From the NCBI GenBank assembly GCA_021654635.1, contig AP025179.1, positions 496,001 to 560,000 on the forward strand: 64,000 nucleotides of DNA, given 5' to 3'. Source of the stretch: Mycobacterium kiyosense (GTDB taxonomy: Bacteria > Actinomycetota > Actinomycetes > Mycobacteriales > Mycobacteriaceae). Positions 34,835 to 41,030 of this stretch are shown here, piece by piece (positions within the stretch are counted from its first letter, which is position 1; every line of letters begins with the position of its first letter). The notes under the pieces were generated by a model, which saw nothing but the letters and a program-made list of their open reading frames with translations, ran no database searches and was not told the origin of the DNA. A program made the translations under genes and the position numbers.

Positions 34835-35515
34835 ATGCCGACAGTGACCTGGGCCCGCGTCGACCCGGCCCGGCGGGCTGCCATCATCGAGGCCGCCGAG
34901 GCCGAATTCGGCGCCCACGGCTTCTCCAACGGCAGCCTGAACGTCATCGCCCGTCGGGCCGGCGTCGCCAAGGGCAGCCTGTTCCAATACTTCGCGGACA
35001 AGCGCGATCTCTACGCCTTCATCGCCGACGTCGCCAGCCAACGGGTGCGCGTCTTCGTGGAGGAGGTCATCCGCGAAATCGAGCCCAGCCGAACGTTTTT
35101 CGAATTCCTCACCGAACTGCTCGACGCCTGGGTCACCTACTACGCCGAGCATCCGCGGGAACGCGCGCTGCACGCCGCGGCCACCCTCGAGGTCGACACC
35201 GACGCCCGGATCAGCGTGCGCAATGTCATCCACCGGCACTACCTGGAGGTGCTGCGCCCGCTGGTGACCGAGGCGCTCCGCCGCGGCGACCTGCGGCCCG
35301 ATTCCGACACCGAGGCATTGCTGTCGCTGCTGCTGATGATCTTCCCGCACCTGGCACTGGCCCCGTATATGCGCGGCCTCGATCCCATTCTCGGCCTCGA
35401 CGAACCCAACCCCGAACAGCCGGCACTGGCCGTGCGCCGTCTGGTCTCGGTACTGGCTGCCGCGTTCTCACCCGTCCCCAGCCCAGCCCCACTAGACACC
35501 AGGAGCGTCACATGA
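34835..35515 (+). CDS. TetR family regulator (Rv0232-like)
   Basis: A 226-residue repressor, similar in length to Rv0232 (about 229). Its helix-turn-helix is at residues 28-50 ([20 protein letters not shown]). AGGAGG lies 4 bp upstream of ATG. The stop codon overlaps the start of the R2-like oxidase gene (ATGA at 35512-35515), so the regulator and oxidase are made together. A clear promoter with two palindromes lies directly upstream. Confidence 0.9.
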
Positions 35516-36450
35516 CCCGCACCCACACCGGCTCGATGGTGGCCGGCGGCCTCAACTGGGAGAGCTTGCCGCTCAAGCTGTTTGCCGGTGGTAACGCCAA
35601 ATTCTGGAATCCCGCCGATATCGACTTCTCCCGCGATCGGGCCGACTGGGAGAAGCTCTCCGACGACGAGCGCGATTACACCATCCGGCTGTGCGCGCAA
35701 TTCATCGCCGGTGAGGAGGCGGTGACCGAGGACATCCAGCCGTTCATGGCCGCGATGCGCGCCGAAGGCCGGATCGGCGACGAGATGTACCTGACGCAGT
35801 TCGCGTTCGAGGAGGCCAAGCACGTCCAGGTGTTCCGGATGTGGCTGGACGCCGTCGGGGTCACCAACGACCTGCACGGCTACCTCGACCCGCTGCCCAC
35901 CTACCGGCAGATCTTCTACGACGAGCTGCCGGACTGCCTGAATGCGCTGACCAAAGACGCGTCCCCGGCCGCGCAGGTACGGGCGTCGGTCACCTACAAC
36001 CACATCGTGGAAGGCATGCTGGCGCTCACCGGCTACTACGCCTGGAACAAGATCTGCGTGGAGCGTGGCATCCTGCCCGGCATGCAGGAGCTGATCCGGC
36101 GCATCGGGGACGACGAGCGGCGCCACATGGCGTGGGGCACCTTCACCTGCCGTCGCCACGTCGCCGCCGACGACGCCAACTGGACGGTCTTCGAATCGCG
36201 GATGAACGAGCTCATCCCAATGGCTCTGCGGCTCACCGAGGAGGGGTTCGCCCTCTACGGCGAACATCCGCCGTTCGACCTGTCGCAGGACGAGATGCTG
36301 CAGTACTCGATGGACAAGGGCATGCGGCGGTTCGGCACCATCAGCAGCGCCCGCGGCCGCCCGGTCGGTGAGATCGACCTGGACTACTCACCGGTGCAGC
36401 TCGAGGACGACTTCGCCGACGAGGACGCCCGGGCGCTGGCCGCGGTTTAG
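35512..36450 (+). CDS. R2-like ligand-binding oxidase (Rv0233-like, annotated nrdB)
   Basis: Ferritin-like protein of 312 residues. All features of the R2lox family are visible at the positions known for M. tuberculosis Rv0233: metal ligands Glu68, Glu101, His104, Glu167, Glu202 and His205, and the Val71 and Tyr162 pair that forms the ether cross-link. It holds an Mn/Fe cofactor and binds a fatty acid; it is not a ribonucleotide reductase subunit despite the old name nrdB. Its stop lies 9 bp from the convergent gabD1 stop. Substrate unknown. Confidence 0.92.
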
Positions 36451-36459
36451 CGCGGGCCG

Positions 36460-37836
36460 TCAGCCCACCCACACCGTCTTGGCGTTGCAGAACGCCTTGA
36501 TGCCCAAGCCGGCCAGTTCGCGTCCGTAGCCCGATCGCTTGACGCCGCCGAACCCGAGTTCGGGATAGGACACCGTCATGCCGTTGATGAACACCTGACC
36601 GGCTTCGATGTCGTCGATGAAGCGCTCCTGCTCGGCTTCGTCCTGCGTCCACGCGTTGGAGCCCAACCCGAAGCTGGTGGCGTTGGCGATCTCGATGGCC
36701 TCGTCGATGTCGGAAACCCGGTACATGGAGGCGACTGGCCCGAACACTTCCTCGGTGTACAGCGCCATGTCCTTGGTGATGTCGGTGATGACGGTCGGCG
36801 GGTAGAACCAGCCCGGCCGGTCGGGGCGCTCGCCGCCGAGGCGAACCTTCGCACCGGCGGCGACGGCGTCGTCGACCTGCTTGGCGATCTCGTCGCGGCC
36901 GGACTCGGTGGCCAGCGGGCCCACGTCGGTGTCCGGGTCGGTCGGATCGCCGACCTTCAATGCCTGCATCTGCTCGACGAACTTGTCCACGAACTCGTCG
37001 TAGATGTCGGTGTGCACGATGAATCTCTTTGCCGCGATGCAGGATTGGCCGTTGTTCTGCACGCGGGCCTTGACTGCGGTCTTGACCGCGTCGTCCAGCG
37101 GCGCCGACGGCATCACGATGAACGGGTCGCTGCCGCCGAGTTCGAGCACGGTCGGCTTGATCTCGTCACCGCAGATGGCGGCGACGGCTTGCCCGGCCGG
37201 CTCGCTGCCGGTCAGGGTGGCCGCCGCGACGCGCGGGTCCCGCAGGATGCGCTCGACGGCGCTCGAGGAGACGAGCAGCGTCTGGAAACACCCGTCCGGG
37301 AATCCGCCGCGGGCGATCACGTCGGACAGATACAACGCCGACTGCGGCACGTTGGAGGCGTGCTTGAGGATGCCGACGTTGCCCGCCATCAGGGCCGGCG
37401 CGGCGAACCGCACGGCCTGCCACAGCGGAAAGTTCCACGGCATCACGGCCAGCACTACGCCTAGCGGCTGGTAGCGCACGTAGGCCCGCTTCGCGCCGAC
37501 CTTCGACGCCTCGGCGGGCTCGTCGGCCAGCAGCTTCTCGGCGTTCTCGGCGTAGTAACGAAAACCCTTGGCGCACTTGAGCGCTTCGGCTTTGGCCGAC
37601 GCCAGCGTCTTACCCATCTCCAGGGTCATCATGGCCGCGACTTCGTCGGCTTCTTTCTCCAGCAGGTCGGCGGTCGCGTTTGCCCATTCGGCGCGCTGGG
37701 CATAGGTGGTCGAATGGCGGTAGTCGAGAAAGCGCTCGTGCGCGCGGGCGATGGCGGCGTCCACTTCGTCGTCGGTGGCCGCGGTGAAGGTTTCGACGGT
37801 CTCGCCGGTGGCCGGGTTGATGGTGGCGATGGGCAC
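36460..37836 (-). CDS. gabD1: Succinate-semialdehyde dehydrogenase GabD1
   Basis: Aldehyde dehydrogenase of 458 residues oxidising succinic semialdehyde to succinate with NADP. The base Glu232 (VLELGGSDP) and nucleophile Cys266 (NNGQSCIAAKRF) are present, as is the PWNFPLW segment at 133-139. Length and neighbours fit Rv0234c. A divergent TPP enzyme gene starts 80 bp away; if that enzyme decarboxylates 2-oxoglutarate, GabD1 would take its product. Confidence 0.9.
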   Translation of the reverse strand: MPIATINPATGETVETFTAATDDEVDAAIARAHERFLDYRHSTTYAQRAEWANATADLLEKEADEVAAMMTLEMGKTLASAKAEALKCAKGFRYYAENAEKLLADEPAEASKVGAKRAYVRYQPLGVVLAVMPWNFPLWQAVRFAAPALMAGNVGILKHASNVPQSALYLSDVIARGGFPDGCFQTLLVSSSAVERILRDPRVAAATLTGSEPAGQAVAAICGDEIKPTVLELGGSDPFIVMPSAPLDDAVKTAVKARVQNNGQSCIAAKRFIVHTDIYDEFVDKFVEQMQALKVGDPTDPDTDVGPLATESGRDEIAKQVDDAVAAGAKVRLGGERPDRPGWFYPPTVITDITKDMALYTEEVFGPVASMYRVSDIDEAIEIANATSFGLGSNAWTQDEAEQERFIDDIEAGQVFINGMTVSYPELGFGGVKRSGYGRELAGLGIKAFCNAKTVWVG

Positions 37837-37916
37837 GCGGGCCCTCCTTCGTTCGGTGGGTTCTCGGAACGTCCACCATCTAGCCTGCCACTATTCTCAG
37901 CACCGGGAGGTGGCGG

Positions 37917-39560
37917 ATGAGCACAGCGGCCCAACTGATCGTCAAGTGCCTGGAAAACGAGGGCGTGGAGGTCGTCTTCGGGATTCCGGGGGAGGAGAAC
38001 ATCCGCTTCGTCCAAGCGCTGGCGGCCTCCGACATCCGTTACGTACTCACCCGGCACGAGCAGGCCGCGGCGTTCATGGCCGAGATGTACGGCCGGGTCA
38101 CCGGGCGTGCCGGAGTGGTGTCGGCGACCCTCGGGCCGGGCGCCATCAACATGCAGCTCGGCGTGGCCGACGCCACCACCAACAGCACCCCGGTGGTCGC
38201 GATCTCGGCGCAGGTGGGGCAGGACCGCGAGTTCAAGGAATCCCACCAGTACGTCGACCTGGTGTCGATGTTCGCCCCGATCACCCGTTGGTCGGCGCCG
38301 ATCCCCACTCCGCACGCCATTCCCGAGATGGTCCGCAAGGCGTTCAAGGTCGCCGAGACCGAGCGCCCGGCCGCGGTGTACCTGGCCGTACCGGAACACA
38401 TCGACGAGGACGACTCCGATTACGAGCTGAAGCCCTTGCCCCGCAACGTCGTTCGCGCCGATGCGCCGGCCGCCAGGCAGGTGGCCCGCGCGGTCGACAT
38501 CCTGCGCGAGGCGAAGCGCCCGGTGGTGTTGGCCGGCCACGGCGCCGCCCGCAGCGACGCCACCGCGGCGCTGGTCCGGTTCGCCGAGAAGCTCGGCGTC
38601 AAGGTGGCCAACAGTTTTCACGGCAAGGGCGTGATGCCCGACGACCACCCCAACAGCATCGGCACCCTGGGCTTCATGCGGCACGACTACGTCAACTTCG
38701 GCTTCGACAACGCCGACGTGGTCATCGCGGTCGGCTACGAGTTGCAGGAGTTCGACCCGGTCCGGATCAACCCGCAGGCCGACAAGAAGATCATCCACAT
38801 CCACCGCTTCCCGGCCGAGGTCGACGCGCACTACTCGGTGGAGGTCGGCATCATCGGCGACATCAGCGACTCACTCGACGCGGTTGCCGACGCTCTCGAG
38901 GGCCACAGTTTCGCCGACGCCGACGTCCCGGGGTCAGGCTTGCTGGCCGAGGAATTCGAGCGGGGACAGAAGGATTCGCGTTTCCCGCTGGCGCCGCAGC
39001 GGGTGGTCGCCGACACGCGGGCGGCGCTGGGGCGCTCCGATGTGGTGCTGGTCGACACCGGGGCCACCAAGATGTGGATGGCCCGGCTGTACCCGACGTA
39101 CGAGCGCAATACCTGTCTGATCTCAAATGGTTTGTCCACTATGGGTTTTGCGCTTCCCGGCGCGTTGGGTGTCAAGCTGGCCAGGCCGCAGGCCAAGGTC
39201 CTGGCCGTGGTCGGCGACGGCGCTTTCCTGATGAACTCCCAGGAGATCGAGACCGCGGTCCGGGAGAAGATCCCGCTGGTGGTACTGGTCTGGGAGGACG
39301 GCGGATACGGGTTGATCGAGTGGAAGATGGACCTCGAACTCGGCGATCACTACTACGTGAAGTTCGGCAACCCGGACATCGTGAGTTACGCGGAAAGCTT
39401 CGGCGCCAAGGGATATCGAATCGGCAACGCCGACGAGTTGTTGCCGACGCTGCGGACGGCGCTGGACGACGACGGGGTGTCGCTGATCGCGTGCCCGGTG
39501 GACTATTCGGAGAACCTGCGGTTGACCGACCGGCTCGGGGAGCTGGACGAGACGCTGTAG
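37917..39560 (+). CDS. TPP-dependent acetolactate-synthase-like enzyme, candidate 2-oxoglutarate decarboxylase
   Basis: Three-domain thiamine diphosphate enzyme of 547 residues. The catalytic Glu48 is in [10 protein letters not shown]; the TPP-binding GDG motif is in [32 protein letters not shown] is the usual N-terminal signature. It would normally be called acetolactate synthase large subunit. However, the C-terminus ([31 protein letters not shown]) resembles, as I recall it, the cyanobacterial 2-oxoglutarate decarboxylase that is paired with succinic semialdehyde dehydrogenase. Here it is divergent from gabD1, and no small regulatory subunit gene is near. Absent from this place in M. tuberculosis. 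GGGAGG precedes the ATG. Confidence 0.85.
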
Positions 39561-39666
39561 ATCTCTGTGCGCAGGACCCCGGCGGCTTTGTGCACAGTTG
39601 GGAGTTTGTCCACAGGGTCGCGCTCGGGGGCGGTGTCGTGTCGTACCCCGGCGATATCATTCGAAC

Positions 39667-41030
39667 ATGCTTGCGAACACGCGTGCGGAGATCGTCGAGG
39701 TTCTCGACGCGTGCGATGCGGCGGTCGAGCGGTTGTGCGAGTTGCGGTTTGAGGTGCTGAGCACCCCGGAGCGGATGGCGATCCTGGAGCGCTTGGAGAC
39801 GGTGGTGCGGCGGCTGCCGGTGCCGCAGCATCAGTTGTTGAATCAGCTCGCCGCGGTGAGCAAGGAGGAGTTGGGTGACACCCTGCGTAACGCGCTGGCC
39901 GATCGGCTGCGGATCACGACTTCGGAGGCTGGCCGGCGGATCGGCGACGCCGCCGATCTCGGTGAACGGCATGGTTTGACGGGGGAGCCGTTGGCGCCGC
40001 GGTTGGAGGCCACCGCCGCCGCCCAACGCCAGGGCCGTATCGGTAGCGGCCACGTGAACGAGATCCGCGACTTCGTCAAACACTTACCGACGGAAGTGGA
40101 TGCCGGTGCCCGCGAGCAGGCCGAAGCCGACCTGGCCGGCCAAGCCGCCGCCATGCGCCCCGACCAACTCAAGGACTACGCCCTCACGCTGCTGGCCTAC
40201 CTGCACCCCGACGGGGAATTCTCCGACGACGAACGCGCCCGCAAGCGCGGCCTGAGTCTGGGCAAACAAGACCCCGACGGCATGTCCAAACTCACCGGCT
40301 GGATCACCCCGCCCTGCGCGCCGCCCTGGAAGCCGCCTGGGCCAAACTGGCCGCCCCCGGCATCGCCAACCCCGAGGACCACCTGCCCCACATCGACGAG
40401 GGCGAGCCGGACCCCGAAGCGGTCCGCCGCGACACCCGCGGTACCGCTCAGCGTCAGCATGATGGGCTGCACGCCGGGCTGATGGCGCTACTGGCCTCCG
40501 GGGACCTCGGGCAGCACCACGGGCTGCCCGTCACCATCGTGGTCACCACCACCCTGGCCGAACTGGAAGCCGGCACCGGCACAGCCCGCACCGGCGGCGG
40601 CAGTCTAGTGCCGATGTCCGATGTGATCCGCTGGTCGGGCGCCGCGCACCCCTACCTCGCCCTGTTCGACGGCGCCACACCCCTGGCGCTGTATCACACC
40701 AAGCGGCTGGCCAACCGCGCCCAACGCCTGATGCTGTATGCGCGGGATCGCGGCTGCACCCGACCCGGCTGCACCGCTGCGGCGTATCACACCGAGGTCC
40801 ATCACCTCACCGCCTGGCACACCTGCCTGAGCACCCACATCACCAACCTCGCCCTGGCCTGCGGCATCCACAACCGCCTCGCCGAACACGGCTGGACCAC
40901 CCGCACCAACCACCGCGGCCTCATCGAATGGCTACCCCCGGCACACCACGACCGGGGCCAACCACGCGTCAACACGATCCACCACCCCGAACGACTCTTC
41001 GCCCCCGACGAAGACAACGACGATCCCTAG
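39667..41030 (+). CDS. 13E12 repeat family HNH endonuclease, broken by one frameshift
   Basis: DUF222/HNH protein of the mycobacterial REP13E12 family. The N-terminal helical part ([20 protein letters not shown]) is in one frame, and the C-terminal HNH nuclease ([18 protein letters not shown], then [15 protein letters not shown]) in another. Restoring one G at about 40311 (CCCCGCCC for CCCCGGCCC) joins both into about 454 residues reading [10 protein letters not shown] across the site. These genes occur in several dispersed copies in mycobacteria and behave like mobile elements; some carry phage attachment sites. It is absent here in M. tuberculosis. The frameshift may be a sequence error. 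Confidence 0.8.

Follow-up and report, generated by a model that had tools for sequence, protein, structure and literature searches.

In a 64,000-nucleotide stretch of the Mycobacterium kiyosense genome (the window; contig AP025179.1, positions 496,001 to 560,000), a gene for a thiamine diphosphate (ThDP)-dependent enzyme stands divergently beside gabD1, which encodes an NADP-dependent succinate-semialdehyde dehydrogenase (SSADH). The reading that we favour, with moderate confidence, is that the ThDP enzyme resembles the cyanobacterial 2-oxoglutarate decarboxylase (KGD) and forms with GabD1 a bypass from 2-oxoglutarate to succinate. The enzyme groups with the cyanobacterial decarboxylase family and not with the acetolactate synthase AlsS or the acetohydroxyacid synthases (AHAS). 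It retains the catalytic residues and both lysines implicated by docking, and its pairing with an SSADH is conserved. Such a route has already been described in cyanobacteria, to whose enzyme family the ThDP enzyme belongs as a diverged member.

Results

The ThDP enzyme (547 aa) is encoded at 37917-39560 of the plus strand and gabD1 (458 aa, start codon GTG) at 36460-37836 of the minus strand. Both frames are open at the places given in the initial annotation, which had been made from the letters alone. The enzyme has the three usual domains of ThDP enzymes, and profile scores and trees assign it to the NF006187 (PRK08322) family. This is its best NCBIfam model (788 bits, cut-off 509), whose name reads 'acetolactate synthase large subunit'.

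Four cyanobacterial relatives score 868–879 bits with the same model. The ThDP enzyme stays under the cut-offs of the AlsS model TIGR02418 (448.8 bits, cut-off 551.1) and of the biosynthetic acetolactate synthase model TIGR00118 (376 bits, cut-off 538.35). It is the sole protein of its genome (6.35 Mb, one contig) above the NF006187 cut-off, the next being an AHAS-like protein (L010; G and L numbers are our handles for genomes and loci) at 374 bits. Its identity is 45–48% to the cyanobacterial rows and 34% to AlsS. Among the best 120 of 8000 matches the closest named protein is from Mycobacterium vicinigordonae (96% identity), and the named records there are labelled acetolactate synthase. For the ThDP enzyme this label is probably wrong.

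In a structure model with a mean pLDDT of 87.3, AlsS-type folds are the top matches, as expected. No 2-oxoglutarate decarboxylase is named among the 50 matches listed in either of the fold-comparison lists, which do not settle the substrate. A C-terminal segment had been put forward as a mark of the cyanobacterial protein. It does not serve as one, as the AlsS of Bacillus subtilis has a similar segment (NIDIVKYAESFGATGLR, PVDYSDN).

Three trees were built, of 68 rows (46 NF006187, 21 AHAS and one long-branched AlsS), 48 rows (eight AlsS, with seven AHAS as outgroup) and 34 rows. Several rows are long-branched and their joins were flagged by the tree tool. The 68-row tree splits the NF006187 rows from AHAS (100/100) and from the single AlsS row (98/78). 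In the 48-row tree the AlsS rows form a clade of their own (100/100), and a second clade (84/74) unites NF006187 with two second-class rows. Inside the latter, the cyanobacterial clade, with the actinobacterial L127, is sister to the ThDP-enzyme clade, with L123 (94/87). The enzyme's own clade has 100/100 in all three. The grouping with true acetolactate synthases that was initially held to speak against a decarboxylase is thus absent, with eight AlsS and seven AHAS rows and equally when 21 AHAS rows and a single AlsS row are used.

The assayed cyanobacterial enzymes are represented in our comparisons by relatives such as L047. All 17 compared positions of L047 agree with the published residues of the Microcystis KGD, so we take it as a putative orthologue of that assayed enzyme. 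PMC10418658 describes the cyanobacterial decarboxylase as specific for 2-oxoglutarate and giving no aldehyde from pyruvate. Its table 1 lists kcat/KM values of 0.8 to 9 x 10^3 per M per s for cyanobacterial enzymes produced together with a chaperone or, from earlier work, for that of PCC 7002. PMC4224347 describes the decarboxylase of PCC 7002 as an acetolactate-synthase gene and not the decarboxylase of the Mycobacterium type.

We compared 16 pocket positions in the Microcystis numbering. Ten are kept in the ThDP enzyme: E50, A384, K386, M410, D435, D462, Y465, L467, K471 and Y531. In its own numbering, E48, K385, M409, D434, D461, Y464, L466, K470 and Y530 match E50, K386, M410, D435, D462, Y465, L467, K471 and Y531, respectively. 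The residues mutated in PMC10418658 are E50, M410, D435, D462, Y465 and L467 (ThDP-binding and catalytic), and all six are present here.

The docking in that report, a model, has 2-oxoglutarate contacted by K386, K471, Q254, V382, A408 and L467, with Lys386 hydrogen-bonded and Lys471 in a salt bridge, and positions 385 and 437 touching ThDP (PMC10418658). Among these contacts K386, K471 and L467 are kept. Both lysines (K385, codon 39069-39071, and K470, codon 39324-39326, plus strand) are invariant across the 26 rows of a family alignment (A1). In a wider set, position 471 is His in L144 and Asn in L141. At the two lysine positions the AlsS rows show Tyr or Ala (386) and Gln (471). Column 471 is uncertain for AHAS, with L010 showing Trp in one alignment and Gln in another.

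The partner was correctly named an SSADH at the outset: with NF006915 it reaches 902.7 bits, the cut-off being 730. It shows no notable difference from the Rv0234c-type GabD1 that this model describes, and its acyl-CoA dehydrogenase, TetR and R2-like neighbours recur in G085 and G124. Among solved structures the SSADH entries 4it9 and 3vz1 come closest (573 bits); we take these to be the Synechococcus PCC 7002 SSADH. GabD1 also carries the NGQSC cysteine and the ELGG glutamate of aldehyde dehydrogenases. Of 148 Mycobacterium genomes, sampled from a larger group, 76 have a GabD1 above the NF006915 cut-off. PMC3756022 lists gabD1 as pathogen-exclusive.

In this sample, 67 genomes have a match above the NF006187 cut-off. 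The main class (above 700 bits) counts 66 genes in 65 genomes and the second class nine genes in nine genomes. Forty-five of the main-class genes adjoin GabD1, all divergently, and 40 of them lie less than 150 bases away; in G575, which supplies one of the 45, the contig ends within GabD1. This pairing exceeds chance. Among the Mycobacteriaceae, the ThDP gene is above the cut-off in six of 151 genomes and beside GabD1 in five of the six. G085 lacks the ThDP gene and has the acyl-CoA dehydrogenase, TetR and R2-like genes, gabD1 and then the genes that lie beyond the ThDP gene here. Hence gain or loss of the ThDP gene took place at one fixed site, so the 45 cases are not independent and are probably one inherited arrangement.

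An SSADH query gave 80 loci. In 46 of them a relative of the ThDP enzyme follows the SSADH gene in the same direction, namely in 45 of the 53 cyanobacterial-titled loci and in L026, a metagenome-assembled genome titled Gracilibacteria; none of the 26 others has it. The 46 include four partial or split matches, and some of the loci that lack one stop at a contig end. The cyanobacterial SSADH scanned also has NF006915 as its best model, but at 662 bits, below the cut-off.

Two other actinobacterial lineages likewise pair the NF006187 family with SSADHs, and these distant relatives are more telling than the 45 Mycobacterium cases. L159 has the ThDP gene beside an NF006915-like SSADH (553 bits, below the cut-off). 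In family f42, both L161 and L163 have it beside GabD-type SSADHs (TIGR01780, 589 and 581 bits, cut-off 646). In a sample of 296 actinobacterial genomes, 24 are above the NF006187 cut-off. Eight of these 24, the M. kiyosense locus included, have an aldehyde dehydrogenase that GabD1 detects no more than 1.5 kb away, as against none of the 20 sub-cut-off loci examined. Three loci scanned in family f15 carry secA where the GabD1 neighbour would be.

The other Mycobacterium members of the family are diverse. Four of the 21 non-adjacent main-class genes (L169, L170, L171 and L182, from G514, G491 twice and G474) form a third branch, with more than 790 bits, 39% identity to the ThDP enzyme and the residues Ser254, Asn382, Met384 and Tyr385. 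The second class scores 620–646 bits in its nine genomes. In its genes L183 (G442) and L184 (G452), Met replaces Lys386 and Lys471 is kept. A common neighbour at the non-adjacent loci was sought and rejected, as only the ThDP gene and overlapping frames recur in at least three of L169, L170, L172, L175, L179 and L183.

An AlsS-type protein occurs in six Mycobacterium genomes (L187-L192, from G124, G442, G500, G463, G545 and G540). These proteins score at most 476 bits with NF006187, have AlsS pocket residues and fall inside the AlsS clade. Five of the six genomes carry the KGD-like gene as well.

The start codons of the two genes are separated by 80 bases in divergent orientation, so the pair is not an operon. 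Read from the sequence, this gap (37837-37916, no strand) holds purine-rich stretches like ribosome-binding sites at 37905-37911 (plus) and 37842-37849 (minus). It also holds the motif AGCCTGCCACT (37882-37892, no strand), which we considered as a shared promoter signal specific to the pair. This was rejected, as G085 (L166) has the motif 5' of gabD1 without having the ThDP gene; the motif is thus probably an element of gabD1.

On the gabD1 side the scan covered genes for an acyl-CoA dehydrogenase, a TetR regulator and a ribonucleotide-reductase R2-like protein; beyond the ThDP gene it covered a split DUF222 gene and those of a PE-PPE protein and a LysR regulator. No neighbour scanned on either side is an acetolactate-synthase small subunit, in agreement with the initial remark that no such gene is nearby. 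The R2-like protein (35512-36450), perhaps of the R2lox type, adjoins gabD1 and has the same position in the relatives G085 and G124. The DUF222 gene just 3' of the ThDP gene (39598-41030), which we take to be of the 13E12 type, is split across two frames (39598-40482 and 40482-41030).

Kgd, the known mycobacterial 2-oxoglutarate decarboxylase (NF008907), was examined in 22 genomes and covers nearly the whole model in one frame in 13, eight of which lack the ThDP gene. G344 and G289 have most of it, in G136 it is cut by contig ends, and G369, G263, G172, G252 and G331 give weak partial matches only. In the M. kiyosense genome, kgd (C1:4907214-4910882, L120) runs over several frames with a frame change near its start. 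About 70 interior model positions are unmatched, and a lower-GC sequence, single-copy in the genome, stands there instead.

The glutamate decarboxylase gene of this genome (C1:1140026-1141321) falls into three stretches, of which the second is out of frame with the others, as indel errors in an assembly typically produce. The DUF222 gene and another ThDP gene are also split in this assembly. We had considered loss of Kgd as the reason for a bypass and set it aside: kgd is broken here, but since these other genes are split too, the break is probably an assembly fault and loss cannot be inferred.

Discussion

In the proposed scheme, the ThDP enzyme would remove CO2 from 2-oxoglutarate non-oxidatively and release succinic semialdehyde. 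GabD1, made from the divergent neighbour gene, would then oxidise the semialdehyde to succinate with NADP. The pair would be a bypass, independent of coenzyme A (CoA), of 2-oxoglutarate dehydrogenase and succinyl-CoA synthetase, as in cyanobacteria, and would work alongside Kgd. We infer the substrate, the release of the free aldehyde, the co-expression of the two genes and the flux through them.

The cyanobacterial system (SYNPCC7002_A2770, sll1981 and Microcystis MAE_06010 with their SSADH) is alike in the NCBIfam family, the catalytic residues, both docked lysines and an SSADH partner with the same best model. It differs in gene order, the 46 pairs from the SSADH query being co-directional and those here divergent, in sequence, the assayed enzymes being compared through relatives, and in that mycobacterial relatives of M. 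kiyosense also keep Kgd. Kgd (Rv1248c type) likewise works on 2-oxoglutarate with ThDP (PMC10418658). Unlike the ThDP enzyme, it is much larger, has another model (1241 positions) and is encoded elsewhere in the genome.

The idea of a cyanobacterial-type bypass, as initially proposed, therefore stands in part. The decarboxylase family and the partner's best model, shared with the cyanobacterial SSADH, agree with it. The separate clade, the altered pocket, the motif common to AlsS and the two family branches that stand beside other aldehyde dehydrogenases do not.

Several observations weigh against the bypass. The ThDP enzyme lies outside the cyanobacterial enzyme clade, in its own clade, in all three trees. 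Sisterhood of the two clades appears in the 48-row tree only; the 68-row tree joins the ThDP-enzyme clade to nine other actinobacterial rows (89/76) with the cyanobacteria outside, and the 34-row tree does not order the two. Because of the separate clade we call the enzyme KGD-like and not a cyanobacterial KGD. Our confidence in the bypass is unchanged by the instability of the sisterhood, since the separation from AlsS and AHAS is independent of it.

In the pocket, six of the 16 positions are unlike all cyanobacterial rows (Q254M, V382T, H385T, A408S, A409T and G437A), and three of them, 254, 382 and 408, are among the six contacts of the docking model. M254, T382, T409 and a non-His 385 are common to the ten nearest actinobacterial rows (L124-L126 and L128-L134). 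As to gene neighbours, 14 of the 21 non-adjacent Mycobacterium copies were examined and no GabD1 match above 90 bits is nearby, and the nearest relatives outside the Mycobacteriaceae (L151-L156) have no GabD1-like gene in 14–15 kb. L138 and L143 (scanned as L162 of G286 and L164 of G225) lie beside dehydrogenases closest to the lactaldehyde and phosphonoacetaldehyde types, whose scores with those models are below cut-off.

The metabolic background adds to these points. The ThDP-gene carriers G069, G124, G015, G042 and G253 keep Kgd in one frame. Glutamate decarboxylase is above cut-off in all eight mycobacteria tested, so GabD1 can obtain its substrate by that route too and does not require the ThDP enzyme for it. 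Replacement of 2-oxoglutarate dehydrogenase was considered in other actinobacteria: in family f15 the E1 component exceeds the NF006914 cut-off in none of nine genomes above the NF006187 cut-off, one of which (G198, L144) is of another branch, vs two of eight without the gene. The direction fits, and the numbers do not decide.

That both docked lysines are kept amid a changed pocket argues, on sequence grounds, that the substrate carries a distal acid group and that the pocket which binds it is unlike that of the cyanobacteria. This would also suit a decarboxylase that releases the aldehyde of a different 2-oxo acid with a distal acid group, such as 2-oxoadipate, oxaloacetate or a sulfonated or phosphonated acid. 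GabD1 would then oxidise the resulting semialdehyde or adjoin for other reasons. The two branches beside other aldehyde dehydrogenases mean that the family has more than one function and suggest other substrates within it. We nevertheless regard this alternative as rather unlikely here, as the partner is an NADP-dependent SSADH well above its curated cut-off and the further SSADH-paired lineages sit elsewhere in the family tree. Less probable still is a carboligase. Such an enzyme would decarboxylate a donor, 2-oxoglutarate or another, and transfer the fragment left on ThDP to an acceptor, either an aldehyde or a 2-oxo acid; the mycobacterial Kgd carries out this kind of reaction with glyoxylate. 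The repeated pairing with aldehyde dehydrogenases points instead to a free aldehyde, which the assayed cyanobacterial relatives release (PMC10418658).

A true acetolactate synthase, as annotated, is the most improbable of these. The family name, the labels of the named records, the AlsS-type fold (4rjj and 1ozf being the nearest solved ones), the shared ThDP domains and the 34% identity speak for it. The enzyme is nevertheless below the cut-offs of both synthase models and outside the AlsS clade, and the pocket residues of AlsS (Gln408, Tyr or Ala386, Gln471) are replaced. Moreover, no small subunit is among the neighbours scanned, an AHAS-like protein (L010) is encoded separately in the genome, and in some relatives an AlsS-type protein accompanies the KGD-like gene. 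The RFDDR motif of the FAD-binding AHAS was seen by eye in neither the ThDP enzyme nor the AlsS sequence compared with it.

The mycobacterial route from 2-oxoglutarate to succinate is debated, and Kgd, a ferredoxin oxidoreductase and the gamma-aminobutyric acid shunt are its candidates. In the open-licence literature, mostly as titles and the starts of abstracts, we found no description of a KGD-like enzyme in mycobacteria. We see about an even chance that some two fifths of Mycobacterium species (65 of the 148 genomes) have, beside Kgd, a second CoA-independent and NADPH-yielding route from 2-oxoglutarate to succinate. Its misnamed decarboxylase would have a remodelled pocket with both substrate lysines kept, and in 45 of 66 genes it would be hard-wired divergently with gabD1.

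If the bypass is true, GabD1 gains an obvious source of its substrate, and the NF006187 name, under which decarboxylases of the cyanobacterial type pass as acetolactate synthases, would be corrected. Flux and knockout results would be read differently if many species had a dedicated decarboxylase beside gabD1. The ThDP enzyme may then give these bacteria a second way to complete the tricarboxylic acid cycle.

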